This document shows, piece after piece, positions 4,924-22,832 of a stretch of 64,000 nt of DNA. The position numbers and the translations under genes are program-made. Each line of letters begins with the position of its first letter. Position 1 is the first letter of the stretch. The notes below the pieces were generated by a model. That model was not told where the DNA came from. It ran no database searches and saw only the letters and a program-made list of their open reading frames with translations. The stretch lies in NCBI RefSeq assembly GCF_005434965.1, contig NZ_SKCI01000001.1:1634955-1698954 (forward strand), given 5' to 3'. The DNA is from Marimonas lutisalis. GTDB taxonomy: Bacteria > Pseudomonadota > Alphaproteobacteria > Rhodobacterales > Rhodobacteraceae.

Positions 4924-6456
4924 GTGAAACTTTTTGGCAAATCAAAGAAAGATGACAACCCGGTTACGAAGATCGAGGAGCAGCCCGCCAAGGTCAAGGC
5001 CCCCGAGATCGAGGCCGAAACAGTAGCCGCCACTGAAACAGTTGAGGCTGGTGAAGCTGTCGAAATCCCGTCTGAGAGGACTGCGAACGCACCGGAGGCA
5101 GACAGTCTTTCGGAAACTGATGCCACACCGTCAGAAACGGACCGTGTTGAACAGGCAACTGAGACTGGTGCAAACGCGCGTCAGCATGTGTTTTCTGCGG
5201 GAGTACCGCCAAAGACAATCGCTGAAACTGGTTTGACGGATAGTTTCCTGATCAATCTCGTCTGCAAGATCATGCATGCCGGCGGGACGATGACGCCCGC
5301 GGAAATCTCTGAGGTTATCAAGCTTCCAAAGATTGTTTGCCGACAACTCATCAAGCAGATGACGTCCCTGGCCCTGGTTGAATCACAAGGGTTGGAAAGC
5401 GAGAACATCAAGTCTGATATTCGCTACTCGCTTACGGATCTGGGCAAGAAATGGGCCCTCGACGCCATGATGGTCTCGCAATACGTCGGCCCGGCTCCCG
5501 TGACTTTGAAGTCCTTTGAGGAACAAATTCGCAAGCAGTCCATTAGCCACGAAGTGGTGCTTCGCGATGAACTTGATGAGGCATTCTCTCACCTTGTCAT
5601 TCCCGATATTCTGAAAGCGCAACTGGGACCGGCCGTAAACTCGGGCCGCTCAATGCTGCTCTACGGTGAGCCAGGCAACGGAAAGACGTCATTGGCAGAA
5701 GCACTGGGCAAATCCTTTCTTGATCTGGTCAGCTTTCCTTATGCGATCCTCGTTGGGAACCAAATCATACGGTTCTATGACGAGACACTTCACGAGCTGG
5801 CCGATCCTCCACAAGACCAGAACTCCAGCGACCCGCGTTGGGTGCTCTGCCACCGCCCCGTTGTCATCGTTGGCGGGGAAATGTCACTGCCCATGCTTGA
5901 CCTCCGCTTCGACGAGATCGCTAGGTTCTACGAGGCGCCGATGCATCTGAAGGCTCTAGGGGGAGTTTTCGTACTTGATGACTTTGGACGTCAGTTGGAA
6001 CCGCCTCAGGCCTACCTTAACCGCTGGATCGTCCCCCTTGAGAAAGGCTTCGATATCCTGTCACTGCACACAGGCAAGAAATTTGCCGTCCCGTTCGATC
6101 AACTCGTGGTGTTCTCATCGAACCTCATGCCGGAAGAATTGGGCGACGACGCAGCTTTGCGGAGGATTTACTTTAAAATTCATGTCCCCAGCCCGACCAG
6201 AGAGGACTATTTTAAGATTTTTCACGACGTGTGTGACGACCTTCAGATCGATTGGGACCAGGACGTTATGAATGAGTTTTTTGACAGAAAATACGAGAAG
6301 GCTCGCTTCATCACTTCGGGCGCGCATCCACGGTTCCTGATGAGCCACATCCTCGCCGCTTGTCGTTACCTGGAGAGAACACCGTCACTGAACCTCGACC
6401 TGCTCGAACTGGCTTGGCGCAATGTTGCTGCAAGCCAACGCCGAACTGACACTTGA
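4924..6456 (+). CDS. AAA-family ATPase associated with the Tad locus
   Basis: The 510-residue protein starts at GTG 4924, after AAAGGA. Residues 1-90 are low-complexity, rich in E, T, A and V, and probably disordered. Residues about 105-185 look like a winged-helix module (SEVIKLPKIVCRQLIKQM). The ATPase core follows, with Walker A GEPGNGKT at 248-255, a Walker B-like GGVFVLDDFGRQ near 350 and a sensor-like VVFSSNL further on. The AAA lid region ends the protein. Similar ATPases often sit in or near alphaproteobacterial pilus loci, but their role is not established. The neighbours (TPR lipoprotein, prepilin peptidase, Flp pilin) suggest a part in pilus assembly or its control. It is not the CpaF secretion ATPase, which is encoded separately at 16399. 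Confidence 0.8.
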   Translation: MKLFGKSKKDDNPVTKIEEQPAKVKAPEIEAETVAATETVEAGEAVEIPSERTANAPEADSLSETDATPSETDRVEQATETGANARQHVFSAGVPPKTIAETGLTDSFLINLVCKIMHAGGTMTPAEISEVIKLPKIVCRQLIKQMTSLALVESQGLESENIKSDIRYSLTDLGKKWALDAMMVSQYVGPAPVTLKSFEEQIRKQSISHEVVLRDELDEAFSHLVIPDILKAQLGPAVNSGRSMLLYGEPGNGKTSLAEALGKSFLDLVSFPYAILVGNQIIRFYDETLHELADPPQDQNSSDPRWVLCHRPVVIVGGEMSLPMLDLRFDEIARFYEAPMHLKALGGVFVLDDFGRQLEPPQAYLNRWIVPLEKGFDILSLHTGKKFAVPFDQLVVFSSNLMPEELGDDAALRRIYFKIHVPSPTREDYFKIFHDVCDDLQIDWDQDVMNEFFDRKYEKARFITSGAHPRFLMSHILAACRYLERTPSLNLDLLELAWRNVAASQRRTDT

Positions 6457-6760
6457 GGACATACGTTTTGCTAAACCGGCTTCAGAGGCATGGACGTTGA
6501 AGAACCGCCTCCAATTAATGGCTTGCGCCGATACGCCCTCGAGAACCGGTAAGATTATCTGCGAACGCTAACGGCTTGGTAGGTTGTTTTTTCAGAACAC
6601 CCCGCCGTGTGTGTCAGGTATGTTCTGTGTGGGAATGCTGCAACTAACAAGGCATCGGGAAAACTTTCTGGCTAGCCCTCGATACCCCCTGCGGTGTACC
6701 TTCCACGAAATACTCCGAACGTAAGGCACCGGAAAGGTGCGAGCTAATGGGGCACAGTGC
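6457..6760. other. Intergenic region before the TPR lipoprotein gene
   Basis: About 300 bases with no convincing gene. The minus-strand frame at 6592-6873 overlaps the lipoprotein coding sequence and is a shadow. A promoter for the 6761 gene is expected here, but no clear -35/-10 pair stands out. Confidence 0.45.
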
Positions 6761-7285
6761 ATGAAACATGGCGTTATTGCTTTCGCGATCGTCCTTGGCG
6801 TGGCAGGCTGCGAAAATGTAGATCTCGGTGAATTCGCTGGGTTCAGTGACCGTAAAGTGTCATTGCGGGACACGTCGAACCTTGCTTACTATCCGGATGA
6901 CGAGATTTTGGTTGCGGCCAAGGCACAATTCAAAGCCGGCAACTACGGGAAGTCATTTCGCATGTTCAAGCGCGCCCTGGACGTGACGCCTGAAGACCCC
7001 GCTGCATGGTTGGGGTTCGCTGCAAGTGCCGACATGCTTCGGAAATTTGACCGCTCGGATTTCGCCTACAAGAAGCTCCAGCCGACGATCGGCAACAGGA
7101 TCGAATACCTCAACAACTACGGTTATTCGATGCTTCTGCGCGGAGAACTGGTTCAAGCGCGCGCGTATTTCTTGAGGGCATACGAAATGGACCCGTCCAA
7201 TCCAGTGACGGCGAACAATCTCGAGCTCTTGCGCAACTCGGTCGAATTCCCGAAACGCGGCCCTGGTCAACTCAAGGGGATTTGA
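6761..7285 (+). CDS. TadD-like TPR lipoprotein of the Flp pilus system
   Basis: The start is placed at ATG 6761, because this gives a clean lipoprotein signal (MKHGVIAFAIVLGVAGC) with lipobox VAGC. A GTG at 6737 would add eight hydrophilic residues and has poor spacing from its GGAAAG. The mature 158-residue protein carries tetratricopeptide-type helices: AQFKAGNYGKSFRMFKRALD, then a NNYGYSMLLRGELVQARAYF block and an AYEMDPSNPVTANNLELL block. TadD proteins are outer-membrane TPR lipoproteins needed for secretin or pilus assembly. The position just before the prepilin peptidase supports that role. Assignment is by architecture and context. Confidence 0.75.
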   Translation: MKHGVIAFAIVLGVAGCENVDLGEFAGFSDRKVSLRDTSNLAYYPDDEILVAAKAQFKAGNYGKSFRMFKRALDVTPEDPAAWLGFAASADMLRKFDRSDFAYKKLQPTIGNRIEYLNNYGYSMLLRGELVQARAYFLRAYEMDPSNPVTANNLELLRNSVEFPKRGPGQLKGI

Positions 7286-7349: not shown

Positions 7350-7781
7350 TTGGTTGCGATAGCTTGGTATGATGCGAAGCATCTGAAGGTGCGCAACAAG
7401 GCTGTTCTGGCCATGTTGCTTCTCTACCTCCCCTCTCAAGGCCTCATGGGCTTTCCGACGTGGCCTCACGACGTGTTCGCGGGAGTTCTTCTTTTCGGGC
7501 TCGGCTTCGCCATGTGGGGTCTTCGTATGATGGGCGCCGGGGATGCAAAACTTATGCTGCCGTTGGGAATGCACATAGGCTACGTTGGCCTTGCATCGTT
7601 CGCTGCGATTTTGACAGCCTTCTCCATCCTCTTTTTCGCGGCGATACAGATAGCTCCTCGTTTCAAGAGAGAAACGGGTCTGTTGGGCTGGCTCAGCAAG
7701 CTGAAGACCGAAGGTCGAGTGCCTTATGCAATACCGCTGTGCATAGCCTCGGTTCCCGCGATGTTGATGCGAGTGGCATAG
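7350..7781 (+). CDS. cpaA: Prepilin peptidase CpaA/TadV (A24 family)
   Basis: A polytopic inner-membrane aspartyl protease that trims Flp prepilin and TadE-type pseudopilins after glycine. Conserved aspartates are visible in AWYDAKHLKVRN near the N-terminus and in the GxGD-type motif GAGDAKLM. The first standard start is TTG 7350, but this removes most of the expected first membrane helix. The frame stays open upstream to 7209 and encodes HFLAKLSAFASAFLLVAIA before the TTG. A CTG at 7290 has AAGGGGA nine bases upstream and would restore the helix (163 residues). The gene directly follows the TPR lipoprotein gene. Family assignment is secure; the start is not. Confidence 0.8.
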   Translation: MVAIAWYDAKHLKVRNKAVLAMLLLYLPSQGLMGFPTWPHDVFAGVLLFGLGFAMWGLRMMGAGDAKLMLPLGMHIGYVGLASFAAILTAFSILFFAAIQIAPRFKRETGLLGWLSKLKTEGRVPYAIPLCIASVPAMLMRVA

Positions 7782-8013: not shown

Positions 8014-9606
8014 ATGGCTTTCCTGCGTGACTTAGAGGACGGGTTTGTCCTTGTTATGTCCTTGCTCATTCTACCGGTGTTTCTCGCATTTGGCCTCATC
8101 TTGATTGACATAGGCCGAGGCAATAATGCGCAAAGCGACCTGCAAGCTGCGGCGGATGCTCTGGCTCTCGCTGGGGCTGCCGAACTCGACGGAGAACCTG
8201 GAGCCATTGCAGACGCTCACGCTGCGATGGAGCAAATTTCCAATAGCGTAAGTATGCTTTTGCGCGACGCTTCACAGTCGCCGATCACGCTGGACTATGA
8301 TGAAAGTAGTAATACTGACGCTTTCTATGTTGCATTCCTGAGCGATATTCCCGCGGATGATACGACGCCCATCGATGCAGCTTGGAGAACAGCTTACAGC
8401 ACAACTGAAGATGCAGAGGCTGCCTATGTGTATGTCGCAGCGCGATCAAGTGACCTTCAACCGGTCTTCCAACGCATCCTGAACTTAACAGGCGATATCC
8501 CTATCAGAGCCGTGGCCGTGGCGACATATTCCAGAGCAGCCTGCCAGGTTGTGCCAATCATGATTTGCAATCCTTTTGAGGAAGAGGGTACCGAATATGA
8601 GGTGCTTTTGGACGCTTTCAATGAGGGTCGCATGCATGGGCGTATGATCCGCCTCATCAAGCAAATGGGCGGCGGCGCAGCCGACCCCGTCGCGCCAGGA
8701 AATTGGGGCTACCTTGAAACCTTCGGGACCGGTGCAGATGTGCTCCGCGCTGCCTTGGCTGGCTACAACCCCCAGTGCTACTCAGGCAACACTGTGGATA
8801 CAAAGCCAGGTGCGACCACAAGCGTTAGCCAAGGCTTTAATACTCGATATGATATCTATTCCGGCTCCTACAATAATACTGAGGATGAATTCCCGCCCGA
8901 TGAAAACATTTCCAATTTTTCGAGCAATACGTCACTGGATGGTGCTTGGGAAAACGAAGTCATGGTAACACCTGTGGATGGTGTGGCGGGATCGTTTATT
9001 GGTGAGGACAGCAACTGGAACCTGCGCGGCGAGTGTCAGGATGTCGATGGTAACATCCTTTTTCGCGGCACTAATGGAAACCCAGACGAAAACATAACGG
9101 AAACCGTAACCGGGGGGACCTGTAGGGTTGATACGGATACCGGCACGGGAATTGAGACGGAAACGGGTACCTGGATGCCAGGGTATTGGGAAGTCAAACA
9201 TGGAGATCCTTGGGATTCATACCTGGATACCAGCGGGCTCAGCAACGCGACTATACGGCGACAATATCCCGATGAACTTGGCGTACTGAACAGTAACACG
9301 CTCCCCTCTCGCTTCGATATCTATGAGCATGAAATAGATGAGGGCCTGGTCGTTGATACCCCGGAAAACGGGGTCGGGACGACTGGCCGCCGTGAACTGT
9401 TCACGGCCATTGTCAACTGCGCCGCAAATCCTTGGACAGGAGCTGGCGATGACATCCCTGTATTGACCTACGCCACGGTCTTTACGCTGTCACCGATGGA
9501 AGGCTCGCAAGACGCGCTTGACTTTGAACTCACCGACCTAGTTGGCTTCACAGGAAGCACAGCCCTGAACGAAAAATTCCGGGAGGACTCCTTTCTGGTG
9601 CGTTAA
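8014..9606 (+). CDS. tadG: TadG-like pilus assembly protein
   Basis: The 530-residue protein starts at ATG 8014 with GGAGGG five bases upstream. Its N-terminus is a short cytoplasmic piece, then one membrane segment (VLVMSLLILPVFLAFGLILIDI), then GRGNNAQSDLQAAADALALAGA. That last block is the TadG/TadE-like N-terminal signature. The large remainder is exported, acidic and rich in D, T, S and N, and contains several cysteines. TadG proteins are minor pilus-associated or envelope-anchored components of the Tad machine. The gene stands alone between the prepilin peptidase and flp, preceded by an AT-rich stretch (7920-7970) that may be its promoter. Confidence 0.8.
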   Translation: MAFLRDLEDGFVLVMSLLILPVFLAFGLILIDIGRGNNAQSDLQAAADALALAGAAELDGEPGAIADAHAAMEQISNSVSMLLRDASQSPITLDYDESSNTDAFYVAFLSDIPADDTTPIDAAWRTAYSTTEDAEAAYVYVAARSSDLQPVFQRILNLTGDIPIRAVAVATYSRAACQVVPIMICNPFEEEGTEYEVLLDAFNEGRMHGRMIRLIKQMGGGAADPVAPGNWGYLETFGTGADVLRAALAGYNPQCYSGNTVDTKPGATTSVSQGFNTRYDIYSGSYNNTEDEFPPDENISNFSSNTSLDGAWENEVMVTPVDGVAGSFIGEDSNWNLRGECQDVDGNILFRGTNGNPDENITETVTGGTCRVDTDTGTGIETETGTWMPGYWEVKHGDPWDSYLDTSGLSNATIRRQYPDELGVLNSNTLPSRFDIYEHEIDEGLVVDTPENGVGTTGRRELFTAIVNCAANPWTGAGDDIPVLTYATVFTLSPMEGSQDALDFELTDLVGFTGSTALNEKFREDSFLVR

Positions 9607-10111
9607 AGGCGAAGAGTTCCCCTAAGTTCCTGAGCTGGCTTGAAGGGTTTATTCATGCGCATCCTAAACTGAGAATACCAGAAACTAGAAAAAACTTTCA
9701 AACTGCACTCCAAGGGCAGTTCTCGAGGGCGGTAGAGAAAGTACTCCCACTTTAACTCGAAGTAATATCCTCGTGCGAATCAGGCGCGCTTGCCCCCGCC
9801 TGGAAAAACAACCCCAAAGAGATGCACGATGGGAAAATGCAACCCAAGCGATATTTCCTCTCTACACTCGCCTCTCCTTTTTCTCACTTTTGTTTCGCAA
9901 GGATCTCCAATAGCGTGTAAGAAGTGGCATTGAGTACTCAATAGAGGCAAATGTGTCGGAAAATGGACTAACCCGGTTTTTATCTAGCCCTTTTTGTGTC
10001 ACGAATATGGCGTGTGGGCTGCTAATCGAAGACTTAGAAGCCATCTCGTATCTTGGAGCTTTCTAAGGTGAAAGAAGAGACGGTTTCGAACTTGTAGGAA
10101 TGGAGAACGTA
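9607..10111. other. Intergenic region upstream of flp
   Basis: About 500 bases with no gene recognised; small minus-strand frames at 9862-10324 oppose flp and look like shadows. The strong, independently terminated flp gene downstream implies that its own promoter lies in the last 150 bases or so, which are AT-rich. Confidence 0.5.
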
Positions 10112-10318
10112 ATGAAATTTGGCACTTTTCTGACTAACGTCGCGAAGCGCTTCCACAAAGAAGAGGAAGGCATCGCACTCAGCGAATACCTCGTTTTGCT
10201 CGGTCTTTTGATCGGCGGCGTGATCACAGCGGTTCTTCTTTTCGGAACTGAGCTGGGCGACGCGTGGGACGCTTGGGCAACCTGGGTTGGCTCGCTTGGC
10301 GACAATGCCCCGTCGTAA
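10112..10318 (+). CDS. flp: Flp/Fap-type major pilin prepilin
   Basis: The start is set at ATG 10112, because GGAG lies six bases upstream; the ATG at 10100 abuts its AGGA. The 68-residue prepilin has a basic 20-residue leader ending EEEG, then IALSEYLVLLGLLIGGVITA. This fits prepilin peptidase cleavage after G20, with the conserved E and Y at mature positions 5 and 6. The mature pilin would be 48 residues: one hydrophobic helix and a short tail, GTELGDAWDAWATWVGSLGD. Such pilins polymerise into adhesive Tad pili. A strong terminator follows directly, so flp is probably transcribed at high level on its own. Confidence 0.93.
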   Translation: MKFGTFLTNVAKRFHKEEEGIALSEYLVLLGLLIGGVITAVLLFGTELGDAWDAWATWVGSLGDNAPS

Positions 10319-10624: not shown

Positions 10625-11749
10625 ATGCGGTTTTCTATGATCCTTAGTCTGGTGGTGGCAGTAATCCTTGCCGGTCTCGCTGTCTATGGGACGCAGGACT
10701 GGCTGGCAGAGCAACGCCAGGTGCTATCGACCCAAGTCTCCGAAACGACGACCTCGGACAAAGAAGTCGAAAAACCGACGTTGGTCGTCGCCGCCGAGGG
10801 GCTCACATTTGGCGAGCGCCTAACACCGGTGAAATTACGTGAAATCGAGTGGGCGGGCGCCATCAGACCTGAAGGATCATTTGAAAAGATCTCCGATCTT
10901 GTCGTCGACGACACTGAAGAGAACGCTCGTTTCGCATTGGCAAACATGGCAACCGGCGAGCCGATACTGGCGAGCCGAATTACTCTTCCAGGTGTGCGCG
11001 CCAAGCTGTCAACACAATTAACGCCCGGCATGAAAGCCATCTCGATTCGCGTAAACGACGTGCTCGGCGTGGCCGGATTTGTTTTGCCAGGGGACAGAGT
11101 TGACGTGCTCCTGACTCGCGGGGGACGCGAAAACTCGTATGTCGATGTGCTTCTCCAGGGCGTTAAAGTGCTGGCAATCGACCAAATCGCAGACGATCGC
11201 AAGGACAAGCCAAGCGTTGTACGAACCGTAACCTTCGAGGTGAATACGCAGGAAGCTCAAAAATTGGTGCTTGCAGCCAATGTCGGAACACTGTCGCTTG
11301 CTCTTCGCAATGTTGCCTCGACCGACGTGGATCCGATGGAGCGTGTAACTCTGAACGACCTCAGTGATCCGGATGTAGCGGACGATCTTACACCGAAGCT
11401 CGAAGAAGAGACCGAACTGCCCGCCGAAAACGCACGGCTTGACGAACTTGAAGCGCTACTAAAGGACATGTCGCAAGGCATAACGAGCCGGCTGAACAGT
11501 GTTGAGGAAAAAATCGAGACACCTGAACCGAAGGTGATAGAGAAGGTTGTCGAAATCGAGAAAGTTGTCAGTCCCCCACCGGCCCCAAGACCCGAGAAGT
11601 CGACTATCGGAGTGATCCGGAATGGAAAGCGCGCAGAATACAAAGTTGAGCACGGTGAGCCTCAAGGTGAACCAAATCGCGCACCCGAAACACCAGGGGT
11701 GAATGGCAATAACGCAACACCACAGCCGGCTGCTGATGCAACAGAATGA
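10625..11749 (+). CDS. cpaB: Flp pilus assembly protein CpaB/RcpC
   Basis: The 374-residue protein starts at ATG 10625 with GGAG about seven bases upstream. An N-terminal membrane anchor (MILSLVVAVILAGLAVYG) is followed by an SAF-type domain at about 55-120 (LVVAAEGLTFGERLTPVKLR and GEPILASRITLPG). Next comes the CpaB/RcpC core with GMKAISIRVNDVLGVAGFVLPGDRVDVLLTR (given in part). The C-terminal 110 residues are low-complexity, with a coiled coil and a proline-rich tail. CpaB is a periplasmic partner of the CpaC secretin. Its stop overlaps the cpaC start (ATGA), showing coupling. First gene of the long operon 10625-19722. Confidence 0.9.
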   Translation: MRFSMILSLVVAVILAGLAVYGTQDWLAEQRQVLSTQVSETTTSDKEVEKPTLVVAAEGLTFGERLTPVKLREIEWAGAIRPEGSFEKISDLVVDDTEENARFALANMATGEPILASRITLPGVRAKLSTQLTPGMKAISIRVNDVLGVAGFVLPGDRVDVLLTRGGRENSYVDVLLQGVKVLAIDQIADDRKDKPSVVRTVTFEVNTQEAQKLVLAANVGTLSLALRNVASTDVDPMERVTLNDLSDPDVADDLTPKLEEETELPAENARLDELEALLKDMSQGITSRLNSVEEKIETPEPKVIEKVVEIEKVVSPPPAPRPEKSTIGVIRNGKRAEYKVEHGEPQGEPNRAPETPGVNGNNATPQPAADATE

Positions 11750-13263
11750 ACAAAATGGCGCTCTTTGCCGGAAACTGTTACAAAGCCGTTGAGCAACAAA
11801 ACAGGCAGGTTGAGATGATGAGCAGTGAAAACTCGACTGAAAAAGACAGGCAGTTCTTTCCTTTTCTTCAGCTAATGGCGTTGTCGGTAATTGCGGCTTT
11901 TTCGCTCGTTGCTGCTGGCAAAGCGTTGAGTCAGGTTCGTGACATTATCGTTGATGACGGCGTCGTTACAAAAGTAGAAATTGCTCCTGGTCATACGCTG
12001 ACAATCTCGACAGATCAGCCCTTTGCGGACGTCCTGATCGGAAACACTGATGTGATCGACGTTTTTCCTCTGACGGACAACTCTCTCTACATCCAATCAA
12101 AATCCCTGGGCGTGACCAACGTAACGCTCTATTCTACGGACAAAAAACTGATTGAGGTCATCGATGTGCGCGTACGTATCGATTACACAGAGCTTGAGAG
12201 GGTGATTTCCCGCACCGTGCCTAGTGCCAATGTTGACGTTCTGAACGTCAACAATCGCATCCGGGTATCCGGTGTTGTGAAAGACAATGTCGACAAGCAA
12301 CGCGTTCTCGAAATCGCGGGACAGTTTTCGTCGGAGCCAGTTATCGATGCTCTGCAGGTCAAAGCCGCTCAGCAAGTTGAGCTCGACGTTCGGATCCTGG
12401 AGGTTGAGCGGCAATCAAGCCGTGGCTTGGGGGTCGATTTGACTGGCACACGCGGTGATCGCACTGGCAACATGTTCAATACCGGCAATTCAGCCGCTGG
12501 CTTCCCGACGGCGGGGACCGGGCTTCCATTCGGTAACGCGGTGGGTCAGCTGCTTTCCATATCGGGCGTTCAGATCGACTACGTCATCAACGCGCTCGAG
12601 GCCAAAGGCTTGGCAAGGCGACTAGCCAACCCCAAGTTGGTCACCACAAGCGGAATTGAAGCCAATTTCGTCGTTGGCGGTGAGGTCGCTGTACCTGTGG
12701 CCGTGCAGGGAGAGAATGGAATTGTTCAGGATACGGAGTTCAAGGAATACGGTGTGCGCCTTAATTTCACGCCAGTGGTCTTGGACGACGAGCTGATCAG
12801 TCTGCGCATCATTCCAGAGGTCTCAGATGTCGATTTCCTGGACGACGTTCCAGCTTTCAACACGCGGCGTGCAGAAACCACTGTTTCGTTGCGCAACGGA
12901 CAAAGTTTTGCAATCGCAGGACTATTGCAAGCCAGGAACGAACGGAACACCGATCAAGTTCCGTGGCTGGGTCAGGTTCCGATCCTCGGTACACTTTTCA
13001 GTTCTCGTTCGTTCCTGAAAAACGAAACGGATCTCGTCATCCTGGTTACTCCGCGTCTCGTAGCGCCAGTTGGGCCAGACCAGCCGTTAAAGACGCCCCT
13101 TGACACAACTCGCTCCTCAAACGACGTTGAGCTCTTTCTCTTGGGGATGACGGAGGTTGACCGCGACTTGCTTCGGCGGTTCAGAGAAGGCGCAGGGATT
13201 GTCGGGCCCTATGGTCACATGATAGATTTGGAGTTTGAAGATGGCGTTATCGAGAAAAAATAA
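11746..13263 (+). CDS. cpaC: Outer-membrane secretin CpaC/RcpA
   Basis: The 505-residue protein starts at ATG 11746 inside the cpaB stop (ATGA). An ATG at 11815 would give a shorter leader. The signal peptide is LQLMALSVIAAFSLVAAGKA followed by LSQ. An N-terminal pilus/secretin domain (about 65-140) includes TDVIDVFPLTDNSLYIQSKS. A BON-like segment follows (RVSGVVKDNVDKQRVLEIAG). The C-terminal secretin domain (about 260-450) shows ALEAKGLARRLANPKLVT, VGGEVAVPV and VPWLGQVPILGTLFSS. It should form the outer-membrane channel through which the Flp pilus is extruded. Confidence 0.92.
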   Translation: MNKMALFAGNCYKAVEQQNRQVEMMSSENSTEKDRQFFPFLQLMALSVIAAFSLVAAGKALSQVRDIIVDDGVVTKVEIAPGHTLTISTDQPFADVLIGNTDVIDVFPLTDNSLYIQSKSLGVTNVTLYSTDKKLIEVIDVRVRIDYTELERVISRTVPSANVDVLNVNNRIRVSGVVKDNVDKQRVLEIAGQFSSEPVIDALQVKAAQQVELDVRILEVERQSSRGLGVDLTGTRGDRTGNMFNTGNSAAGFPTAGTGLPFGNAVGQLLSISGVQIDYVINALEAKGLARRLANPKLVTTSGIEANFVVGGEVAVPVAVQGENGIVQDTEFKEYGVRLNFTPVVLDDELISLRIIPEVSDVDFLDDVPAFNTRRAETTVSLRNGQSFAIAGLLQARNERNTDQVPWLGQVPILGTLFSSRSFLKNETDLVILVTPRLVAPVGPDQPLKTPLDTTRSSNDVELFLLGMTEVDRDLLRRFREGAGIVGPYGHMIDLEFEDGVIEKK

Positions 13264-13447
13264 ACGTGCGCTAATCGTTGCAGGCATACTTACGCTATTG
13301 GCAAGTTGTGGTACGCCGGATTACCTAAATAACTGGGATACTTCATCAGCCCGTACGGGTGATGCGGGGGCGGCTAATACATCGATCCAAGAGATACAGA
13401 CCTGGCCACCTTCGGCGTACAAAACGACTGTCGGTTCAGGGGGCTGA
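13241..13447 (+). CDS. Small lipoprotein in the Tad operon
   Basis: The start at ATG 13241 is preferred (GGAG eight bases before). It lies inside the end of cpaC in another frame, giving a 23-base overlap. The 68-residue protein has a lipoprotein signal ending LTLLASC, then GTPDYLNNWDTSSARTGDAG and a WPPSAY segment. The 'NxxDT...GDA.AN' pattern resembles small lipoproteins found in pilus and secretion loci, but I cannot name a family. It occupies the position where many Tad loci encode the larger CpaD lipoprotein, which I do not find in this locus. Confidence 0.75.
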   Translation: MALSRKNKRALIVAGILTLLASCGTPDYLNNWDTSSARTGDAGAANTSIQEIQTWPPSAYKTTVGSGG

Positions 13448-13545: not shown

Positions 13546-14028
13546 ATGTCGAGGCAGAAAGACCCCGGATTTGCTGGTTGTGAGCGCGGGTCAGTTTTAA
13601 TTGAAGCGCTAATAGCCTTTCCTATCCTGACGATTGTTTCTTTTGGCCTGCTCGAATTCGGTAACTTGATGTGGCAACGAGAACAGCTTCAAGCCGGTGT
13701 TCGTGACGCTGCCAGGTATTGGTCGCGCTGTAGACCCGCAACAGCAACCTATGCGTCGACTTGCGACGAACAAACGGCGCGAAATATAGCCTTTTATGGC
13801 CATCCTCTTGGCGCAGGCTACGGTCAACTTCGCGTTCCTGGATGGGACCAACCAGGCGAGATTGTATTTTCGCCAGACAAAAGTCTGCTGTCGAGTGTTC
13901 CAGACCCCGAAAACACTGTTGTTGTGACTGGAAGTGTCGTTTACCAAGGGTCTCCTGCTTTTGGCCTCATTCTCTCTGATGAAGTAACCATCAATTCCAC
14001 GACCGAAATGAGGTCAATCGGATGGTGA
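13546..14028 (+). CDS. tadE: TadE-like pseudopilin 1
   Basis: The 160-residue protein starts at ATG 13546 with GAGG five bases upstream. Its N-terminus ends in a prepilin-type site, CERG followed by SVLIEALIAFPILTIVSFGL, with glutamate at mature position 5. Residues to about 65 match the TadE-like domain (LQAGVRDAARYWSRC). TadE proteins are processed by CpaA and act as minor pilins or initiators. The soluble part contains three cysteines. The stop overlaps the next gene by seven bases. Confidence 0.85.
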   Translation: MSRQKDPGFAGCERGSVLIEALIAFPILTIVSFGLLEFGNLMWQREQLQAGVRDAARYWSRCRPATATYASTCDEQTARNIAFYGHPLGAGYGQLRVPGWDQPGEIVFSPDKSLLSSVPDPENTVVVTGSVVYQGSPAFGLILSDEVTINSTTEMRSIGW

Positions 14029-14666
14029 AAGGAAAACCGAGAAAAAGCTCTTTTGCGCATGACATCTCAGGGCTGGCGATGACAGAGGCTCTTATCGTCG
14101 TTCCCGTGCTGATTTTGATCTTCGGTGCCATGGTCGAATTCAGCATTATGGTTTTCCAGTGGAGCCAAACAGTCAAAGCGCTGGAAGTAGGTGCTCGTCG
14201 AGTTGTCGTATCAACGCCTCTCACCGACATCACCCCATTGAGTGATTATGATACGATCCCGACTGGGGATCCCCTACCAATTAGCTCTTATACGTCAGTG
14301 AGTTGTGGTGCTGATGCTTCGGCTTGCGACACTACACAGTTCAATCGTCTTTATTATGGCGCGGATGGAACTTGCGGCGGTTTAGACACGAGTGGAGTGG
14401 TCGGAATATGCGACGTCGCACCTTTCATTCGCCAGTCCAATGTGCGAATTACATATCATCGGGCAAATCTGGGGTATGCTGGAAGGCCAAACGGTCCAGT
14501 TCTGACGGTCACTGTGGAAGTTCGGAATCTCTACTTTGACTTCTTTGTGCTTGATACCATATTCACGGCGTTCCAATCAGCCGGCCTACCTTCCAGTATT
14601 CAGATTCCGGCACACCCGGTCTCAATGACGAGCGAAGACTTATGTAATGGAAGATCGTGCTCTTGA
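14022..14666 (+). CDS. TadE/TadF-like pseudopilin 2
   Basis: The 214-residue protein starts at ATG 14022 within the end of the preceding tadE. Its N-terminus has HDISG followed by LAMTEALIVVPVLILIFGAM, again a prepilin cleavage pattern with glutamate at position 5. The TadE-like signature continues as WSQTVKALEVGARRVVVSTP. The larger exported part has six or more cysteines (for example SCGADASACDTTQF and GTCGGL). It is probably TadF, the second minor pseudopilin of Tad loci; the family does not let me fix E versus F by eye. Confidence 0.8.
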   Translation: MVKGKPRKSSFAHDISGLAMTEALIVVPVLILIFGAMVEFSIMVFQWSQTVKALEVGARRVVVSTPLTDITPLSDYDTIPTGDPLPISSYTSVSCGADASACDTTQFNRLYYGADGTCGGLDTSGVVGICDVAPFIRQSNVRITYHRANLGYAGRPNGPVLTVTVEVRNLYFDFFVLDTIFTAFQSAGLPSSIQIPAHPVSMTSEDLCNGRSCS

Positions 14667-15823
14667 ACATGTACATGGACAACCAAACTGAAAGCCGCAT
14701 GCCGAAAGTGTTAATACTTTCCGGCGACGGGGTCAGCGATTCCGAAATAGAGAACTTGCTCGGGACATCAAACAGGCTGATTCTGTCACAGCTCAATAAA
14801 AACAATCTGAAAGAGGTACTTACGCCTACATTTGGCGATATTCTTGTTATCAATGTTATGCATCTGTCGGAAAAGGAGATAGAGCTGTTGTCAGATGTCA
14901 GGGCGATGGTTCCTGACCTACCTCTTATTGTGGTTTCCCCGCAATTGAGCGCCGAAGAAACAAGACGCCTATTTAAATTCAACATTCATGATTGGATGCC
15001 GAAACCGGTTTCGAGTAAGGACTTGATCGAGAGCGTGTTCAAGGGTATCCGCACGCGGAAGGTCTACAACAACCGTGTGCACGCAATTGTATCAGCTGTT
15101 GGCGGCTCTGGAGCTACAACGCTCGCAGTTTCTATGACTGACCTAGCCGCAACGAAATTATTTCGAAAGCAATCCGTTGCTCTTTTCGATCTCGATTTTT
15201 CCCTCGGAAATTGCGGATACACGGTAAATCTGAAAAACAATTACAAATTGGCAAACGTTGCTTCTACGCCGCATCGTGTGGACGCTGAGTTTATTCGAGT
15301 GATCCAAAAAAGGCATGAACACCAGTTCTATCTTTATTCATTTAAAGAGCCTGAATTGAATACCGAAGTTAATGGCTATGAACTGGTGCTCAGGATGCTC
15401 GATGCTGTAAGCGTAGAACATGAGCATACATTCCTGGACATTCCTTACTACGAAACCGAATGGAAAGACGACGTTCTGTCAGCTGTCAATACTTGCACGC
15501 TGGTTTCCGAGTTGAACCTACCTGCAATCAAACACACTATTGACCTTATTGAACGCATTCAAGAATTGCGTGGCAAGGATTTTCCTCTGCACGTGGTCTT
15601 CAATAAATGGGAGCCCAGCCTTTTTGGGCAACGTATTGGACGAAAAAAAATTCGTGAACTATTCGGCGAAGTCCCCTTCTCTTACATTCCTCTAGCGAAA
15701 ACCCAAATAGGTGAAGCCGTTGACCGCGGTGTTACCCCAAGTGACATTTCAAAGAGTTCTAAGTTTTTGCGGGCACTCCTCAAGTATATGAAAACCCTCG
15801 AACTTGTGGAGGCGAAGGTATGA
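14657..15823 (+). CDS. cpaE: Pilus localisation ATPase-like protein CpaE/TadZ
   Basis: The 388-residue product starts at GTG 14657 (GGAAG four bases upstream); ATGs at 14669 and 14675 are alternatives. Residues about 15-130 form a receiver-like domain without a clear phosphoacceptor (ends FNIHDWMPKPVSSKDLI). Residues 140 onward are a ParA/MinD-like fold. Its P-loop reads AVGGSGATTLAVS (148-159), lacking the usual lysine, as is typical of TadZ. FDLDFSLGN and HTFLDIPYYETEW mark later ATPase motifs. TadZ proteins mark the polar site of pilus assembly. The gene overlaps the upstream TadE-like gene by ten bases and the L,D-transpeptidase by four. Confidence 0.88.
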   Translation: MLLNMYMDNQTESRMPKVLILSGDGVSDSEIENLLGTSNRLILSQLNKNNLKEVLTPTFGDILVINVMHLSEKEIELLSDVRAMVPDLPLIVVSPQLSAEETRRLFKFNIHDWMPKPVSSKDLIESVFKGIRTRKVYNNRVHAIVSAVGGSGATTLAVSMTDLAATKLFRKQSVALFDLDFSLGNCGYTVNLKNNYKLANVASTPHRVDAEFIRVIQKRHEHQFYLYSFKEPELNTEVNGYELVLRMLDAVSVEHEHTFLDIPYYETEWKDDVLSAVNTCTLVSELNLPAIKHTIDLIERIQELRGKDFPLHVVFNKWEPSLFGQRIGRKKIRELFGEVPFSYIPLAKTQIGEAVDRGVTPSDISKSSKFLRALLKYMKTLELVEAKV

Positions 15824-16377
15824 GCCAAGAGCTCATGAGACGACAAGCCGTTTTGGGCGCGGCGGCGCTCATTGCCTTTCCGTCTATCTTGAACGCCAAA
15901 TCTAAGCGAGTTCCTCGAAGCCACGGTGAGCGAACTATTGAAATCGTCGACTACCCCAGCAGCGAACCTCGCGGTACAATAATTATATCAAACAATGCCA
16001 GGACGCTTCATCGTATTCTCGGCGGTGGCAAAGCCGAGCGATACCGTATTTCAGTTGGTCGCGATGGTTTCACTTGGACGGGGACCACTTATGTTGGAAG
16101 TAAGAAACAATGGCCTGGCTGGCGACCACCACAAGACATGCGCCGTCGCGACCCCTCCTTGCCGGAATACGTCCCTCCAGGACCGTACAACCCGCTTGGA
16201 GCACGTGCGCTATATCTCTACAAGAATGGTCGGGATACGCTGTATCGAATTCATGGAACGAACAGCGCTGAAACCATAGGCGGCTACGAAACATCCGGAT
16301 GCTTTCGATTGACGAATGCTGACATTCTCGACCTTTTCAACAAGGTAGCCCCCGGAACCAAAGTGATTGTTCGATGA
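15820..16377 (+). CDS. L,D-transpeptidase (YkuD family) inside the Tad operon
   Basis: The 185-residue protein starts at ATG 15820 inside the cpaE stop (ATGA), so it is co-translated with a pilus gene. The N-terminus MRRQAVLGAAALIAFPSILNA is a signal with a twin-arginine look (RRxxxLG). Residues about 50-185 form the YkuD catalytic domain. The signature is IHGTNSAETIGGYETSGC followed by FRLTN, with His145 and nucleophile Cys161. Such enzymes make 3-3 peptidoglycan cross-links or attach proteins to the wall; some act as carboxypeptidases. The operon position suggests local wall remodelling to let the pilus pass, or anchoring. That role is inferred. Confidence 0.9.
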   Translation: MSQELMRRQAVLGAAALIAFPSILNAKSKRVPRSHGERTIEIVDYPSSEPRGTIIISNNARTLHRILGGGKAERYRISVGRDGFTWTGTTYVGSKKQWPGWRPPQDMRRRDPSLPEYVPPGPYNPLGARALYLYKNGRDTLYRIHGTNSAETIGGYETSGCFRLTNADILDLFNKVAPGTKVIVR

Positions 16378-16398: not shown

Positions 16399-17808
16399 AT
16401 GGCCGGGCGATTTTTCAGGAAAGAAAAAGCGATACCCATCGAAAAAGAGCAGGACCACGAGCTTTTAACTCTTGATGGTAAGCTTGAAAAACCGCTGGAC
16501 ATTAACGAGGAGCGACGACCGCCGGAAAGCCATGATGCTCCTGATTTCGTCAATGAACGGGTCACGTTACACCGCTACCTGATCGATAAGATCAATCTGT
16601 CTATTTTGGATACCATGGAGGAGGACGAAATCCTCGATGAGTTGCGTCCACTCGTTCGAGCTTATTCAAAGGACCACAACTTCCCACTCAGTTCTAGTGA
16701 ACTGGAGAGCTTGGTCAAAGACATTGGCGACGAGATGTTAGGGCTTGGCCCGATTGAGCCGCTACTGGATGACGATACGGTATCCGACATTCTGATCGTT
16801 GGACCGAGGACAGTTTACGTGGAGCGATTTGGTAAACTGGAAAACACGAAAGTCCGTTTCAAGGACGAAGACCACTTGATGCGGATCATCAACAAGATCG
16901 TTGCCTCAGTTGGACGGCGTGTCGACGAGAGTTCACCGCTAGTCGACGCGCGCCTTGCCGATGGGTCGCGCGTGAATGTTGCTATTCGGCCGGTAGCAGT
17001 GGATGGACCACAAGTATCGATCCGAAAATTCGCCAAACGCCCGTATTCACTGGATAAACTTGTCCAAAACAATACCTTGGCGCATGGTATGGCCCAACTT
17101 CTTTCAGCAGCGGTTGAGGGTAAGATTTCGATTGTTGTTTCAGGAGGCACAGGCTCAGGTAAAACAACGCTGCTAAACGCACTCTCGTCCTTTATTCCTC
17201 ATGACGAACGCATGGTTACAATCGAAGACGCTGCTGAACTTCAGTTACAGCAGCCACACGTCGTGAGACTGGAAACCCGGCCTCCCACAGTTGATGGGCG
17301 AAACGAAATCATGCAGCGGGATCTCGTAAAAAATGCGCTCAGGATGCGTCCAGACCGTATTATCGTCGGCGAGGTCCGGGGAGGAGAGGCTTTCGACATG
17401 CTTCAAGCAATGAACACGGGCCACGAAGGTTCAATGTCGACAATCCACGCAAACAGCCCACGCGACGCCATCTCACGTATGGAACAGATGGTCGGTATGG
17501 CAGGTATGCCTATGAGCCAGACTGCGATCCGCTCGCAGATCACTTCCGCGATCGATCTCATCATACAGCTCGACCGCTTGCGCGATGGCACTCGAAAAAT
17601 CACTTCGATCTCCGAGATCACAGGAATGGAAGGTGATGTTGTGCAACTTCAGGAAATCATGCGTTTCAAACGCACGGGGGTCGATGATACAGGCCGCGTT
17701 ACGGGCGAATTCCGCGCAACCGGTATTAGGCCGACTTTCCTCGACGACCTCGCGACGATGGGTTTGCCCGTACCACTCGAGTATTTTGATCCCTCCAAGG
17801 AACTTTGA
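16399..17808 (+). CDS. cpaF: Secretion/assembly ATPase CpaF/TadA
   Basis: The 469-residue hexameric ATPase starts at ATG 16399 with AAAGGA seven bases before. An N-terminal helical region is followed by the linker [20 protein letters not shown] (about 113-132). The catalytic core has Walker A GGTGSGKT at 249-256, the Asp box IEDAAELQL, Walker [20 protein letters not shown] and the His box [14 protein letters not shown]. It powers Flp pilin assembly, and possibly retraction, at the inner membrane with TadB and TadC. The length fits the family. Confidence 0.95.
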
Positions 17809-17811
17809 AGA

Positions 17812-18774
17812 ATGTTCAGTTCGCCCATAATAATCTATGGCCTAGTATTTGCAGCAGTGCTGCTTCTCACTGACACGCTGCTAAGGCTCTTGTTTTCCTC
17901 AAGACGTAGTTCTGCAGAGGTTAAGAACCGGTTAGAGTCATTGAAAGTCGATAAGGGCGCCGACATCGCCTACACAGACTTACTATTGCGGAGAGGGATT
18001 TCTGGAGGAATCGGAGGTGAAAGCCTTGCACAAAGAATTCAGCGTTACTATGCGCAGACGGGACTCGAAATAAGCAAATCGCGGCGCGTTCTATACTTTC
18101 TTGCCCTTCTATTTCTTGGCTATGCCGTCGCTGAAATTGTTTTCAACTTAAACCTTATTTTTTCTACAATTTTTTCTATGATCTTCACTATCGTTGTATC
18201 TAGTTTGACCATATATATTCTTCGGTCGAAAAGAATAAAAAAATTCAATCAACAGCTGCCTCCTGGTATCGATATCATCGTACGCAGCCTAAATGCCGGA
18301 CACCCTCTAAATGCAGCCATTGCACTCCTAGCGCGGGAAATGCCAGATCCGATCGGATCTGAGTTCGGCATCTTGAACGACCAAATGACTTTTGGATCGG
18401 ATCTTGATCAAGCAATGCAAAATATGATTGAACGCGTCGGTGCGCCGGAGTTAAATCTTCTCGCTGTAACGGTTAGCGTGCAACGCAACACCGGAGGCAA
18501 TTTGTCCGAAATCTTGGAAAACTTGGCACAGATGATGCGAGATCGGTTGATGATCAAAGCCAAGATCCGTGCCATATCCGCAGAAGGTCGCTTTACTTCC
18601 TGGCTAATGATGCTGTTCCCCTTCTTTCTTTTCGCGATGATCTACTCACTTGTACCGACCTATTTCGATGAGGTTTGGGAAAGCGGTTATGGCGAGGTGC
18701 TTGTAATCGGCTGTCTCGTTTTCATGGCCTTCGGCATGATTGTCATTCGGCGTTTGGTAAATTTCGACTTCTGA
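17812..18774 (+). CDS. tadB: Tad inner-membrane platform protein TadB
   Basis: The 320-residue protein starts at ATG 17812, three bases after cpaF, with AAGGAA upstream. Membrane segments are visible near residues 3-25, 85-140 (two), 265-285 and 295-315. Between them lies a type II secretion F-type domain (FNQQLPPGIDIIVRSLNAGH, then VSVQRNTGGNLSEILENLAQ). It pairs with TadC to form the platform driven by CpaF. Confidence 0.92.
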   Translation: MFSSPIIIYGLVFAAVLLLTDTLLRLLFSSRRSSAEVKNRLESLKVDKGADIAYTDLLLRRGISGGIGGESLAQRIQRYYAQTGLEISKSRRVLYFLALLFLGYAVAEIVFNLNLIFSTIFSMIFTIVVSSLTIYILRSKRIKKFNQQLPPGIDIIVRSLNAGHPLNAAIALLAREMPDPIGSEFGILNDQMTFGSDLDQAMQNMIERVGAPELNLLAVTVSVQRNTGGNLSEILENLAQMMRDRLMIKAKIRAISAEGRFTSWLMMLFPFFLFAMIYSLVPTYFDEVWESGYGEVLVIGCLVFMAFGMIVIRRLVNFDF

Positions 18775-18801: not shown

Positions 18802-19722
18802 ATGAACGAACAGCTTATCCTGATAGCGGTTTTTGTGGCAGTTTTAATTTTTGTGTTCACGGTATTCTCGGCATTTCTCAGCCGCCGTGACGTGCAGCGT
18901 AATATCAGCGCAGCACGGGGAAGAAAAAAGAACGAAGACGAAATCGATAGTATTTTAGGCACTGGAAATGAACAGCTTCGTTACTACCTCGACGTAGTAA
19001 AAAATGAAAGCCCAGACAGTCTTCGCATGCGACTCGTTCAGGCAGGATTCTTTTCCAAATCCGCTATCCGGATATTCAACCTGATCCGATTGACAGCGGT
19101 AGCGGCTGTTTTCTTCCTCGTGCAACTAATCTTACCCAACTTGGCCAAGGACGCATCTACCACCGCTGTTTATGCTTTTGCGGGTATCGCTGGAGGCCTA
19201 ACGTTTATTGTGTGCTCTATCGTCCTGGAGCGTATTGGCCTTAAGCGAATGCGCGAATACAAGAAACTTTTTCCAGACTTTATGGATCTACTTCTTGTGT
19301 GTACCGACGCGGGCCTTAGCATTAATGCCGCATTGGATAGAGTTACTCGGGAATTCTTACAAACAGTTCCAGATTTCGGAATTCAACTTTCCATTGTAAA
19401 CTTAGAACTTCGGGCAGGACGCCCACTAGACGAAGCTCTCAGCAATTTTTCAGAGAGGGTCCGCGTGGAAGAAGCGAGGACACTAGCAGTATTGTTTCGC
19501 CAGTCTCAAGAACTTGGTTCCGATGTGAGCCGCACGCTACGAAGTTTTGCTCGTGAGATGCGACAAATGCGGATCATTCGTGCGGAAGAAAAAGCGAATG
19601 CCCTTCCAATCAAGATGCTTTTCCCAATGGCTTTTTTCATGTTCCCGGTCAGCCTGATTATCGTACTAGTACCGATCATGATGACGATCATCAAAATATT
19701 CTTGCAAATGTCGCCAGGATAG
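18802..19722 (+). CDS. tadC: Tad inner-membrane platform protein TadC
   Basis: The 306-residue protein starts at ATG 18802. It has an N-terminal membrane helix, two central helices (about 90-140) and a C-terminal helix (LFPMAFFMFPVSLIIVLVPI). The F-type domain between shows LFPDFMDLLLVCTDAGLSIN and RQSQELGSDVSRTLRSFA. It is the last gene of the operon that begins with cpaB. No clear terminator follows. Confidence 0.92.
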   Translation: MNEQLILIAVFVAVLIFVFTVFSAFLSRRDVQRNISAARGRKKNEDEIDSILGTGNEQLRYYLDVVKNESPDSLRMRLVQAGFFSKSAIRIFNLIRLTAVAAVFFLVQLILPNLAKDASTTAVYAFAGIAGGLTFIVCSIVLERIGLKRMREYKKLFPDFMDLLLVCTDAGLSINAALDRVTREFLQTVPDFGIQLSIVNLELRAGRPLDEALSNFSERVRVEEARTLAVLFRQSQELGSDVSRTLRSFAREMRQMRIIRAEEKANALPIKMLFPMAFFMFPVSLIIVLVPIMMTIIKIFLQMSPG

Positions 19723-21383: not shown

Positions 21384-22832
21384 TCAAACACCTAGAAGCA
21401 GGAATACGGCAAACAAAGCTCCACAAAAATAACTGACGCGATCCCGAACAGCGAAGATTAACGGGTCCTCATGCATTTGCCCTCTTTGAGCTAGAAACAC
21501 CAAACGACAAAGCCAGTACAAAAGAACTGCACAAAGGCCCCAGAATACCTCGGGATTTTTATACAAAACGAGGATTTCGGGAGAATTAATATAGAGCGCT
21601 AGAACTAGAACTGATATGAAACCAGAACTTAGTGCCATTTGTGCAACGAGCGCGAGATCTGGTGCAAAATAACCTCTACCGGCCACCTCATGTCTTCCGT
21701 GCTCTCCTACGCTTACCAATTCAGCTTGACGCTTGACAGAAGCAAGCGACAAGAAAAAGAACATTGAGAATGCCATCAACCAAACAGAAATTTCGATGCC
21801 CGTGGCGGCTGAGCCCGCAACAATTCTAAGGGAATACAGCACCGAAAGCGCACCAATATCAATTATAATGTAGCGCTTGAGAACGAGTGAATATGTACAT
21901 GTCAAAACAAAATATGCTGTGGCTATAACTGCGAAATCCCTACCAAGAAAAAAGGAAAGAACTGCCCCTAGGAAAAGCAGCAGCATTGCCACGACACTTC
22001 CATGTAGCAAATTCGCATCTCCAGCAGCGAAAGGGCGTTGCATTTTCTTCGGATGCATACGATCGGATCGCAAGTCTAAAAGATCATTGATAAGGTAAAC
22101 CGAAAATGCTATCAGACTAAATGCAAAAAAAGCAATTACCGCGCGCCCCATTGCAGGCGCCTGCCACATTTGCGAAGTCAGTAAAGGGACAAAAATTAGT
22201 ATGTTCTTGAGAGCATGATGCGGCCGAACTGCGCGTATGATGTCCGCCACGCTTGCTCTTCGAGTTTTTAATAACCGAGTTGGTGTACCTGTCTTCTTAG
22301 CCCTTTCCTTCAAACGGGTATCAGCACCGACAACGAAAGCTTCTGCAGCCTCGTTCCAAACAGGGATATCGGCGTTGCTATCACCCACATAGATAAAGTT
22401 TTTTGCACCAAACCTTTCTACCAGGAATTCGGCCTTAATCCGGCCCTTTAAGTTTCGCTGTTCAGTACTTCCATGGACCTCATCAAAAAGGCCTGTTTCT
22501 TCGGAAATCCGTTTTGCTATCTGCTCATCTGCAGCAGTCACCAGAGCCGTTTTGCCCCCATTTTCACGATGCTTTCTTATTAAATCCAGAACTGCTTTTT
22601 CAAATGGAAGAGAGGCAAAGTCGATTTGGCTGTGCCTTGCCAAAATTGCTTTCGCTATTTGTTTTCCCCGGACCGCTGCAATCGCACCACAAATAGCTTT
22701 AAACGGGTGCGTGCTTAAACAAGACCAAAACGTTTCCACCAGCATGTCAGTACGAATAAGTGTTCCATCCAGGTCGACCACCAACACAGGCAGAACACCA
22801 GAACTCCTTGCTCGAAAAGATATCTGCGACAC
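21384..22832 (-). CDS. HAD phosphatase-UbiA prenyltransferase fusion (polyprenyl-phosphate phosphoribosyltransferase type)
   Basis: The 482-residue protein starts at GTG 22832. Residues about 15-190 are a HAD hydrolase: motif I VVDLDGTLIRTD, motif II VTAAD, motif IV VGDSNADIPVWNEA. Residues about 205-482 are a UbiA-type membrane domain with INDLLDLRSDRMHPKKMQRP (NDxxDxxxD plus HPxKxxRP). That motif is typical of decaprenyl-phosphate phosphoribosyltransferases. The fusion could transfer phosphoribose from PRPP to a polyprenyl phosphate and then remove the 5-phosphate, two consecutive steps to polyprenyl-phosphoryl ribose. Family level is secure; the lipid and sugar are inferred. It is about 220 bases downstream of nothing recognisable and upstream of the membrane protein at 19921. 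Confidence 0.82.
   Translation of the reverse strand: MSQISFRARSSGVLPVLVVDLDGTLIRTDMLVETFWSCLSTHPFKAICGAIAAVRGKQIAKAILARHSQIDFASLPFEKAVLDLIRKHRENGGKTALVTAADEQIAKRISEETGLFDEVHGSTEQRNLKGRIKAEFLVERFGAKNFIYVGDSNADIPVWNEAAEAFVVGADTRLKERAKKTGTPTRLLKTRRASVADIIRAVRPHHALKNILIFVPLLTSQMWQAPAMGRAVIAFFAFSLIAFSVYLINDLLDLRSDRMHPKKMQRPFAAGDANLLHGSVVAMLLLFLGAVLSFFLGRDFAVIATAYFVLTCTYSLVLKRYIIIDIGALSVLYSLRIVAGSAATGIEISVWLMAFSMFFFLSLASVKRQAELVSVGEHGRHEVAGRGYFAPDLALVAQMALSSGFISVLVLALYINSPEILVLYKNPEVFWGLCAVLLYWLCRLVFLAQRGQMHEDPLIFAVRDRVSYFCGALFAVFLLLGV

Follow-up and report, generated by a model that had tools for sequence, protein, structure and literature searches.

Why should an operon for a tight adherence (Tad, type IVc) pilus carry a transpeptidase gene of its own? 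The question is raised by a locus of Marimonas lutisalis (Rhodobacteraceae) contained in a stretch of 64,000 nucleotides of contig NZ_SKCI01000001.1 (positions 1,634,955 to 1,698,954 of the forward strand), referred to below as the window, where a gene for a YkuD L,D-transpeptidase (LDT) lies between the pilus genes cpaE and cpaF. We found that this LDT marks a distinct Tad pilus subtype, and that there is a reciprocal swap between the LDT, present in the subtype, and an OmpA-like peptidoglycan-binding lipoprotein, present in ordinary Tad operons. From sequence comparisons we propose, with a probability of about 0.5, that the LDT fixes the outer-membrane secretin module (CpaC plus a short CpaD-like lipoprotein) to peptidoglycan, taking over the job of the OmpA-like lipoprotein. 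The gene and its key sites are the following, in window coordinates.

15820-16377, + strand: ldt, YkuD LDT of 185 amino acids with an ATG start, predicted to be exported (RR-type or Sec signal); from the open reading frame (ORF), Pfam, alignment and predicted fold.
15820-15823, + strand: ATGA, a 4-nucleotide overlap of the ldt start and the cpaE stop; read from the sequence.
16252-16302, + strand: catalytic codons, His145 at 16252-16254 and Cys161 at 16300-16302; from alignment, with positions computed from the ORF start.

By profile, active site and predicted fold, the product is assigned to the YkuD LDTs, with a presumed transpeptidase activity. It scored 87.1 bits against the Pfam family YkuD (PF03734; cut-off, 23.4), and His145 together with Ser159-Gly160-Cys161-x-Arg163 was invariant in all 16 rows of the LDT alignment; all 26 Tad-linked LDTs had the motif HGTN...SGCFR intact. 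These results and the gene order bear out the preliminary description of the locus, which had recognized a YkuD enzyme with intact His and Cys between cpaE and cpaF, its start within the cpaE stop. The AlphaFold model of the LDT (pLDDT, 83) found its best structural match in Bacillus subtilis YkuD (Z score of 17.8; root-mean-square deviation of 2.1 over 111 residues) and also matched a Klebsiella LDT structure (Z score of 15.7). By sequence, the closest solved structure was 6v45, a YkuD-like protein of Brucella melitensis whose entry name, "carnitine operon oxidoreductase," is in our view a misnomer. Among the NCBIfam models the top score was that for LdtE, and the models of the PRK10190 and PRK10260 LDTs matched too, all far below their cut-offs; the match to the carboxypeptidase model ElsL was weak. 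Two other origins of the gene were discarded: no phage relative was detected in viral contigs with the peptide patterns used, and a defence gene found no support, since ldt had no PADLOC match.

To establish how widely the arrangement is shared, a family sample of 394 genomes, one per genus, was searched separately with the LDT and with CpaF. CpaF matched at 70% identity or more in 10 genomes (E ≤ 3.3e-208), the next best match reaching 58% (1.5e-156), and the LDT matched in 11 genomes (E ≤ 3.4e-75; next, 2.0e-45). Ten of these 11 were the 10 genomes with the subtype cpaF, and the eleventh, G344, had no subtype motor. The order cpaE-ldt-cpaF was found in all 10 genomes with the subtype cpaF (in G287 the contig begins inside cpaE), each of which contains at least one additional, ordinary cpaF; the host genome itself has a second, ordinary Tad operon. 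A scan of named genomes gave nine loci with at least 65% LDT identity, namely, those of Thalassovita aquimarina, Gemmobacter aestuarii, three Aliiroseovarius, Pseudothioclava arenosa and three further Rhodobacterales, and all nine showed cpaE-ldt-cpaF; the remaining 71 loci kept from that scan (55% identity or less) had no tad gene match in the DNA examined. The genus-level searches, in the host's own genus and in that of G344, covered one genome each. Across the Rhodobacterales loci, identity to the window was 64 to 74% for the LDT and 44 to 58% for cpaE. No LDT was present in any of 50 ordinary Tad loci of the family, in agreement with the earlier statement that the gene is not part of the standard Tad set, and its conserved slot in the subtype operons ties the enzyme to the Tad machine, as had been suggested. 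For its part, translational coupling of ldt to cpaE, also claimed in that description, fared in two ways. The overlap stood, being found in 14 of the 16 Rhodobacterales loci containing cpaE and in 6 of 6 annotated plasmid loci, and because it recurs across loci it suggests coupling; the coupling itself goes a step beyond the overlap, and the ldt start is closely preceded by a GGAGG of its own.

The subtype is not restricted to the Rhodobacterales. The same operon, mostly with the same gene order, was found on Rhizobium plasmids (five annotated loci), on plasmids of Sinorhizobium chiapasense and S. fredii (by tblastn) and on a Salipiger plasmid, so the possibility that the arrangement is unique to this strain, named at the outset as what would refute the idea, was rejected. 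Rhizobial operons have TadG placed after the short lipoprotein and before TadE, with the prepilin peptidase upstream on the opposite strand and the tetratricopeptide repeat (TPR) gene downstream. PLSDB contained 68 plasmid records with this LDT (57 Rhizobium, 9 Sinorhizobium, 1 Ensifer and 1 Salipiger) and 69 with the subtype CpaC; the rhizobial counts are drawn from plasmids only. In Rhizobium etli CFN42 the part of the locus covered shows the LDT gene next to a pilus-assembly gene, and S. fredii CCBAU 25509 carries a full operon rather than a remnant. A maximum-likelihood tree built from 107 LDTs united the 24 Tad-linked proteins in one clade (100/98 support) against 83 others, with a Rhodobacterales branch and a rhizobial branch inside this clade. 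At the level of the class the subtype is rare, since a draw of 385 genomes from 277 genera gave no further Tad-linked LDT at E ≤ 1e-55: of the nine matches, eight lay outside the host's own Tad locus and had no tad gene match within flanks of up to about 1.5 kb. That draw, in which up to eight candidates were scored per genome and Rhizobiaceae were perhaps few, is not a census.

Two side observations may be recorded here. A small conserved protein of 186 amino acids in Rhizobium (L194, 13300-13860), without a significant Pfam match, accompanies the rhizobial subtype; it was matched in L193, L199-L201 and L286 and persists in the remnants described below. Hyphomicrobiales plasmids (L202, 4413-8558; L205, 7986-13258) carry several LDT genes near copper, arsenic and other metal genes, unrelated to Tad.

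The exchange with the OmpA-like lipoprotein was complete in the loci compared. An OmpA-like protein was encoded in all 32 ordinary loci having cpaC and an LDT in none of them, whereas the LDT-type loci had the LDT in 26 of 26 cases and an OmpA-like protein in 0 of 26 (E ≤ 1e-10). The OmpA-like model was seeded by six of the 32 proteins, all six assigned to OmpA by Pfam, which leaves 26 independent. CpaC was missing from the stretch obtained for 18 of the 50 ordinary loci of the family, and these 18 did not enter the OmpA counts or the tail counts given below; repeats were counted once (L256 is the own-genome L182, and L066, L068 and L070 are G330, G272 and G016), and L054, which starts inside cpaE, was excluded from the 26. 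In place of the OmpA-like protein, the LDT-type loci encode a short lipoprotein of 42 to 91 mature residues, whose gene overlaps that of cpaC at its end; none of the four examples scanned showed a significant domain. An Lpp-like attachment of this lipoprotein through a conserved Lys was rejected, because 13 of the 26 mature proteins have no Lys at all. In Caulobacter, CpaD, a lipoprotein of 225 amino acids encoded after cpaC, is required, and its predicted OmpA-like fold is the proposed anchor of the secretin on peptidoglycan (PMC13170226). Separately, at least two of the 18 loci without CpaC, L187 and L189, carry TadE, TadF, TadG, CpaB, CpaE and CpaF; they resemble a third arrangement of Tad genes, in which no secretin was found within the stretch obtained.

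The remaining features of the window operon are listed below.

4924-6456, + strand: AAA ATPase that accompanies the subtype, 45% identical to the AAA protein of the Rhizobium cluster.
6737-7285, + strand: TPR lipoprotein, TadD-like, pilotin candidate.
7350-7781, + strand: prepilin peptidase CpaA/TadV; Pfam Peptidase_A24.
8014-9606, + strand: TadG-like protein; family profile scan.
10100-10318, + strand: Flp pilin candidate, 72 amino acids, without a Pfam match; from sequence and position.
10625-11749, + strand: cpaB/rcpC; Pfam/NCBIfam RcpC/CpaB.
11746-13263, + strand: cpaC, secretin; Pfam Secretin and T2SS-T3SS_pil_N.
13219-13260, + strand: C-terminal extension of CpaC past GPYGH, 14 residues, ending in ...EKK.
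13241-13447, + strand: short lipoprotein of 68 amino acids in the CpaD position, without an OmpA domain, overlapping the cpaC end.
13546-14028, + strand: tadE, pseudopilin; Pfam/NCBIfam TadE.
14022-14666, + strand: tadF, pseudopilin; family profile scan.
14657-15823, + strand: cpaE, receiver-like/ParA-like docking protein; weak NCBIfam matches and place between tadF and ldt.
16399-17808, + strand: cpaF, motor ATPase, subtype specific (69 to 81% identity to other Rhodobacterales LDT-type proteins, at most 59% to ordinary ones of the family); T2SSE.
17812-18774, + strand: tadB, platform protein; T2SSF.
18802-19722, + strand: tadC, platform protein; T2SSF.

The operon is thus complete, running from the TadD-like lipoprotein and prepilin peptidase through TadG, Flp, CpaB, CpaC, the short lipoprotein, TadE, TadF, CpaE and the LDT to CpaF, TadB and TadC. 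The secretin, CpaB, CpaF, two T2SSF proteins, TadE-type pseudopilins and prepilin peptidase identify it as Tad/type IVc; Flp and CpaE were assigned by sequence or place, CpaE having no Pfam match and weak receiver/CpaE-like NCBIfam matches. The AAA ATPase shifts relative to the operon, being upstream in the window and downstream in Rhizobium and several relatives. Farther away, 21384-22832 (- strand) is a 482-amino-acid ORF that by eye resembles a fusion of a phosphatase-type domain and a membrane prenyltransferase, and an ORF at 27777-28307 (- strand) resembles by eye an IS6-type transposase. The LDT domain was the sole peptidoglycan-acting domain found by Pfam scans of the window cluster, and no hydrolase domain was detected in the cluster proteins scanned. 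Two roles had been envisaged for the enzyme in the preliminary description. Opening the wall for the pilus is disfavoured by that result and by the known LDT activities, which cross-link or attach; anchoring a component is the reading that fits best.

Which component would be anchored is suggested by the C terminus of the secretin. Ordinary CpaC proteins stop soon after a short Gly-rich motif (for example, GSYGY or GPxGF), mostly with Glu or Asp at the end, and those of the LDT-type loci continue for 13 to 15 residues beyond GPYGH. A Lys was found within the last two residues of CpaC in 26 of 26 LDT-type loci (17 terminal and 9 penultimate) and in none of 60 intact ordinary tails (31 from the family and 29 further ones; the tail of L190, with an early stop in a broken frame, was left out). 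The same position seldom held a Lys in other cluster proteins: CpaB, 1/17; TadG, 0/20; TadE, 0/21; TadF, 0/23; Flp, 0/24; TadD, 0/25; and the short lipoprotein, 1/23. The LDT itself had one in 10/26. For CpaC, AlphaFold gave a model of low confidence (pLDDT, 59.5, with residues 452 to 505 below 50) that is uninformative on the location of the tail. In Dickeya dadantii, LDTs attach both Lpp and OutB, the scaffold of the type II secretion system secretin, through a C-terminal Lys, and a Lys-bearing box is reported to be necessary and sufficient for attachment (PMC12274547). By analogy with these proteins, the terminal or penultimate Lys of CpaC is the likeliest acceptor, possibly bonded to meso-diaminopimelic acid (mDAP) as in Lpp and OutB, a proposal that we regard as tentative. 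The larger share of the weight that we give to secretin anchoring falls on this tail as the site of attachment.

Loci that have lost the motor tell with which part of the machine the LDT travels. G344, in the middle of a 171-kb contig, retains TadD, the prepilin peptidase, a pilin-like match, CpaC (...LLVQK), the short lipoprotein and the LDT, with no match at the locus to the subtype TadG, CpaB, TadE, TadF, CpaE, CpaF, TadB or TadC; the sole CpaF of this genome belongs to its ordinary operon. Plasmid pB of S. meliloti retains CpaC (...SKK), the lipoprotein, the LDT, a TPR protein and the small conserved protein, and S. terangae retains CpaC (...SKK), the lipoprotein, the LDT and the small protein, with no TadD within the stretch fetched; for the Sinorhizobium remnants the analysis covered that stretch. 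Because these three loci keep both genes after motor loss, the LDT tracks the outer-membrane secretin, not the motor. The tree places G344 beside G287 and joins the two Sinorhizobium remnants to each other inside the branch of full operons; since the remnants fall in separate positions among full operons, the sequences indicate that the motor was lost at least twice. Between the two Sinorhizobium remnants, the ratio of nonsynonymous to synonymous substitution rates (dN/dS) was about 0.10 for cpaC and about 0.17 for the LDT, so that both genes would have stayed under selection without the motor, provided that it was lost before the two lineages diverged. The motor-less secretin may serve the other Tad system of the genome or another secretion route. 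The remnants lie at L061, 9485-13544; L193, 3809-7974; L200, 6173-9185; and L286, 8953-11985, three with an LDT and one, that of S. mexicanum, without.

With respect to catalysis, acceptor and effect on pilus anchoring, we infer the following course. The LDT would be exported to the periplasm, where it would take a tetrapeptide stem, form an acyl-enzyme at Cys161 and transfer the stem to an amine. That amine would be the C-terminal Lys of CpaC, each secretin subunit becoming tied to mDAP, and the tied ring would be held against the pull of the pilus, a covalent substitute for OmpA binding. A Tad machine with its own transpeptidase, bolting the secretin ring covalently and subunit by subunit through C-terminal lysines in place of non-covalent OmpA binding, is in this full form a possibility for which the odds are clearly below even.

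Several observations weigh against anchoring of the secretin. Nine tails have a Lys at the penultimate position only, with ends of the KR, KN and KQ type. In 26 of 26 loci cpaC overlaps the lipoprotein gene, whose product has a positively charged start that favours AAA/AAG codons in the overlap; synonymous recoding of the lipoprotein alone, on the assumptions that only its residues are conserved and that synonymous codons are equal, gave about 9.8 of 26 tails expected with a Lys in the last two residues, compared with the 26 observed, so the overlap accounts for part, not all, of the Lys signal. Pseudomonas RcpA binds the pilotin TadD through its final four residues (PMC10499894), and the CpaC tail may, by analogy, be a TadD-binding tip. 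The remnant of S. mexicanum retains CpaC (...LSKK), the lipoprotein, the small protein and the TPR protein and has no LDT at the locus; an obligatory coupling of LDT and secretin fails there, where another LDT may stand in. The host genome has seven further YkuD genes elsewhere, and the counts of subtype and ordinary loci are not independent, given shared descent within each group.

The enzyme might instead form the usual 3-3 (mDAP-mDAP) cross-links where the pilus is located, and so strengthen or remodel the wall that surrounds the trans-envelope channel, with no protein becoming attached. This is the commonest LDT activity (review, PMC12729407), and LdtE, the model with the top score, albeit far below its cut-off, is named as a cross-linker in an Agrobacterium paper (PMC11527210). 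Such a role would leave unexplained the OmpA exchange, the Lys tail of the secretin and the retention with the secretin after motor loss, and the host's seven other YkuD genes are available for general cross-linking; we regard it as rather unlikely. A role in anchoring a different partner, such as the N terminus of CpaC or that of another envelope protein, with the CpaC tail as the TadD-binding tip and its Lys incidental, we hold to be unlikely. The RcpA precedent speaks for it, as do the retention of TadD in the remnants of G344, S. meliloti pB and S. mexicanum (it was not found in the S. terangae stretch), the share of the Lys signal that the gene overlap yields, and the attachment by alphaproteobacterial LDTs of outer-membrane protein N termini (Ala-Asp, in Brucella; PMC12729407). 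However, ordinary CpaC proteins lack the tail even though TadD-like TPR proteins matched in 8 of 10 ordinary clusters, predicted CpaC N termini begin, by eye, around Gln rather than Ala-Asp, and the lysine-free half of the short lipoproteins disfavours an Lpp-like attachment of that protein.

Two other explanations are far less probable. LDTs are many in Alphaproteobacteria and this one is absent from ordinary Tad operons, as would be expected of a housekeeping-like gene dropped into the operon without a pilus role; a random passenger was nevertheless rejected on account of the single clade, the identical slot and the 4-nucleotide overlap in two orders, and the higher identity of the LDT than of cpaE and the purifying selection between the two remnants leave very little room for a passenger of any kind. 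It is equally improbable that the enzyme works otherwise, as an L,D-carboxypeptidase, in D-amino-acid exchange or in detaching a wall-bound protein, and so tunes the anchor rather than makes it. Detaching amidases (DpaA/LdtF) as well as exchange enzymes do occur among YkuD proteins (PMC12729407), but HGTN...SGCFR is intact in all 26 proteins, the ElsL match is weak, and the OmpA exchange would again be left without explanation.

Anchoring of the secretin by the LDT has partial parallels in known systems. In Dickeya, YkuD LDTs (Ldt03/Ldt84) bind a secretin-associated protein, OutB, to peptidoglycan through its C-terminal Lys, but they also attach Lpp, are not described within a secretion operon, and the protein attached is an inner-membrane scaffold (PMC12274547); in the subtype described here the operon includes the LDT, and the secretin itself is the candidate acceptor. 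The Caulobacter module likewise has a gene for a lipoprotein after cpaC and a secretin presumably held to peptidoglycan, but CpaD has an OmpA-like fold, which would bind non-covalently (PMC13170226), where the subtype has a short lipoprotein plus an LDT. The ordinary Tad systems of the Rhodobacterales, found in the same genomes, share homologs of Flp, CpaA, CpaB, CpaC, CpaE, CpaF, TadB and TadC, and differ in that they have the OmpA-like lipoprotein and lack both the LDT and the Lys tail of CpaC. The LDTs with which Alphaproteobacteria tether outer-membrane beta-barrels to the wall (PMC11527210, PMC12729407) belong to the same family and host class and have a comparable role, although no link with a pilus operon was seen in the excerpts and the acceptors of Brucella Omp25 are N-terminal.

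We found no description of a transpeptidase or YkuD gene in a Tad, flp or type IVc pilus operon in excerpts of open-licence papers, bioRxiv excluded. The available text of a paper on the type IVc pilus of S. meliloti GR4 (PMC10934763) does not mention a transpeptidase, YkuD or peptidoglycan, and that of a paper on Rhodobacterales Tad (PMC8383342) mentions neither a transpeptidase nor OmpA. LDTs and Tad pili are both known; what appears new is that the two are paired in a dedicated way and that the LDT is exchanged with OmpA.

Little is known of how retractile pili keep their place in the envelope when they are under load. In this subtype a non-covalent grip on the wall, that of the OmpA-like lipoprotein, has seemingly been swapped for an enzyme, and the pili may be joined to the wall by chemical bonds instead of simply adhering to it. 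The genes of the operon are open to individual deletion in model rhizobia, for example R. etli CFN42 and S. fredii NGR234, and the question of what pins the Tad machine to peptidoglycan becomes directly addressable by mass spectrometry. If the proposal is true, the secretin would be a new wall-bound protein, and one LDT among many would have a specific role.

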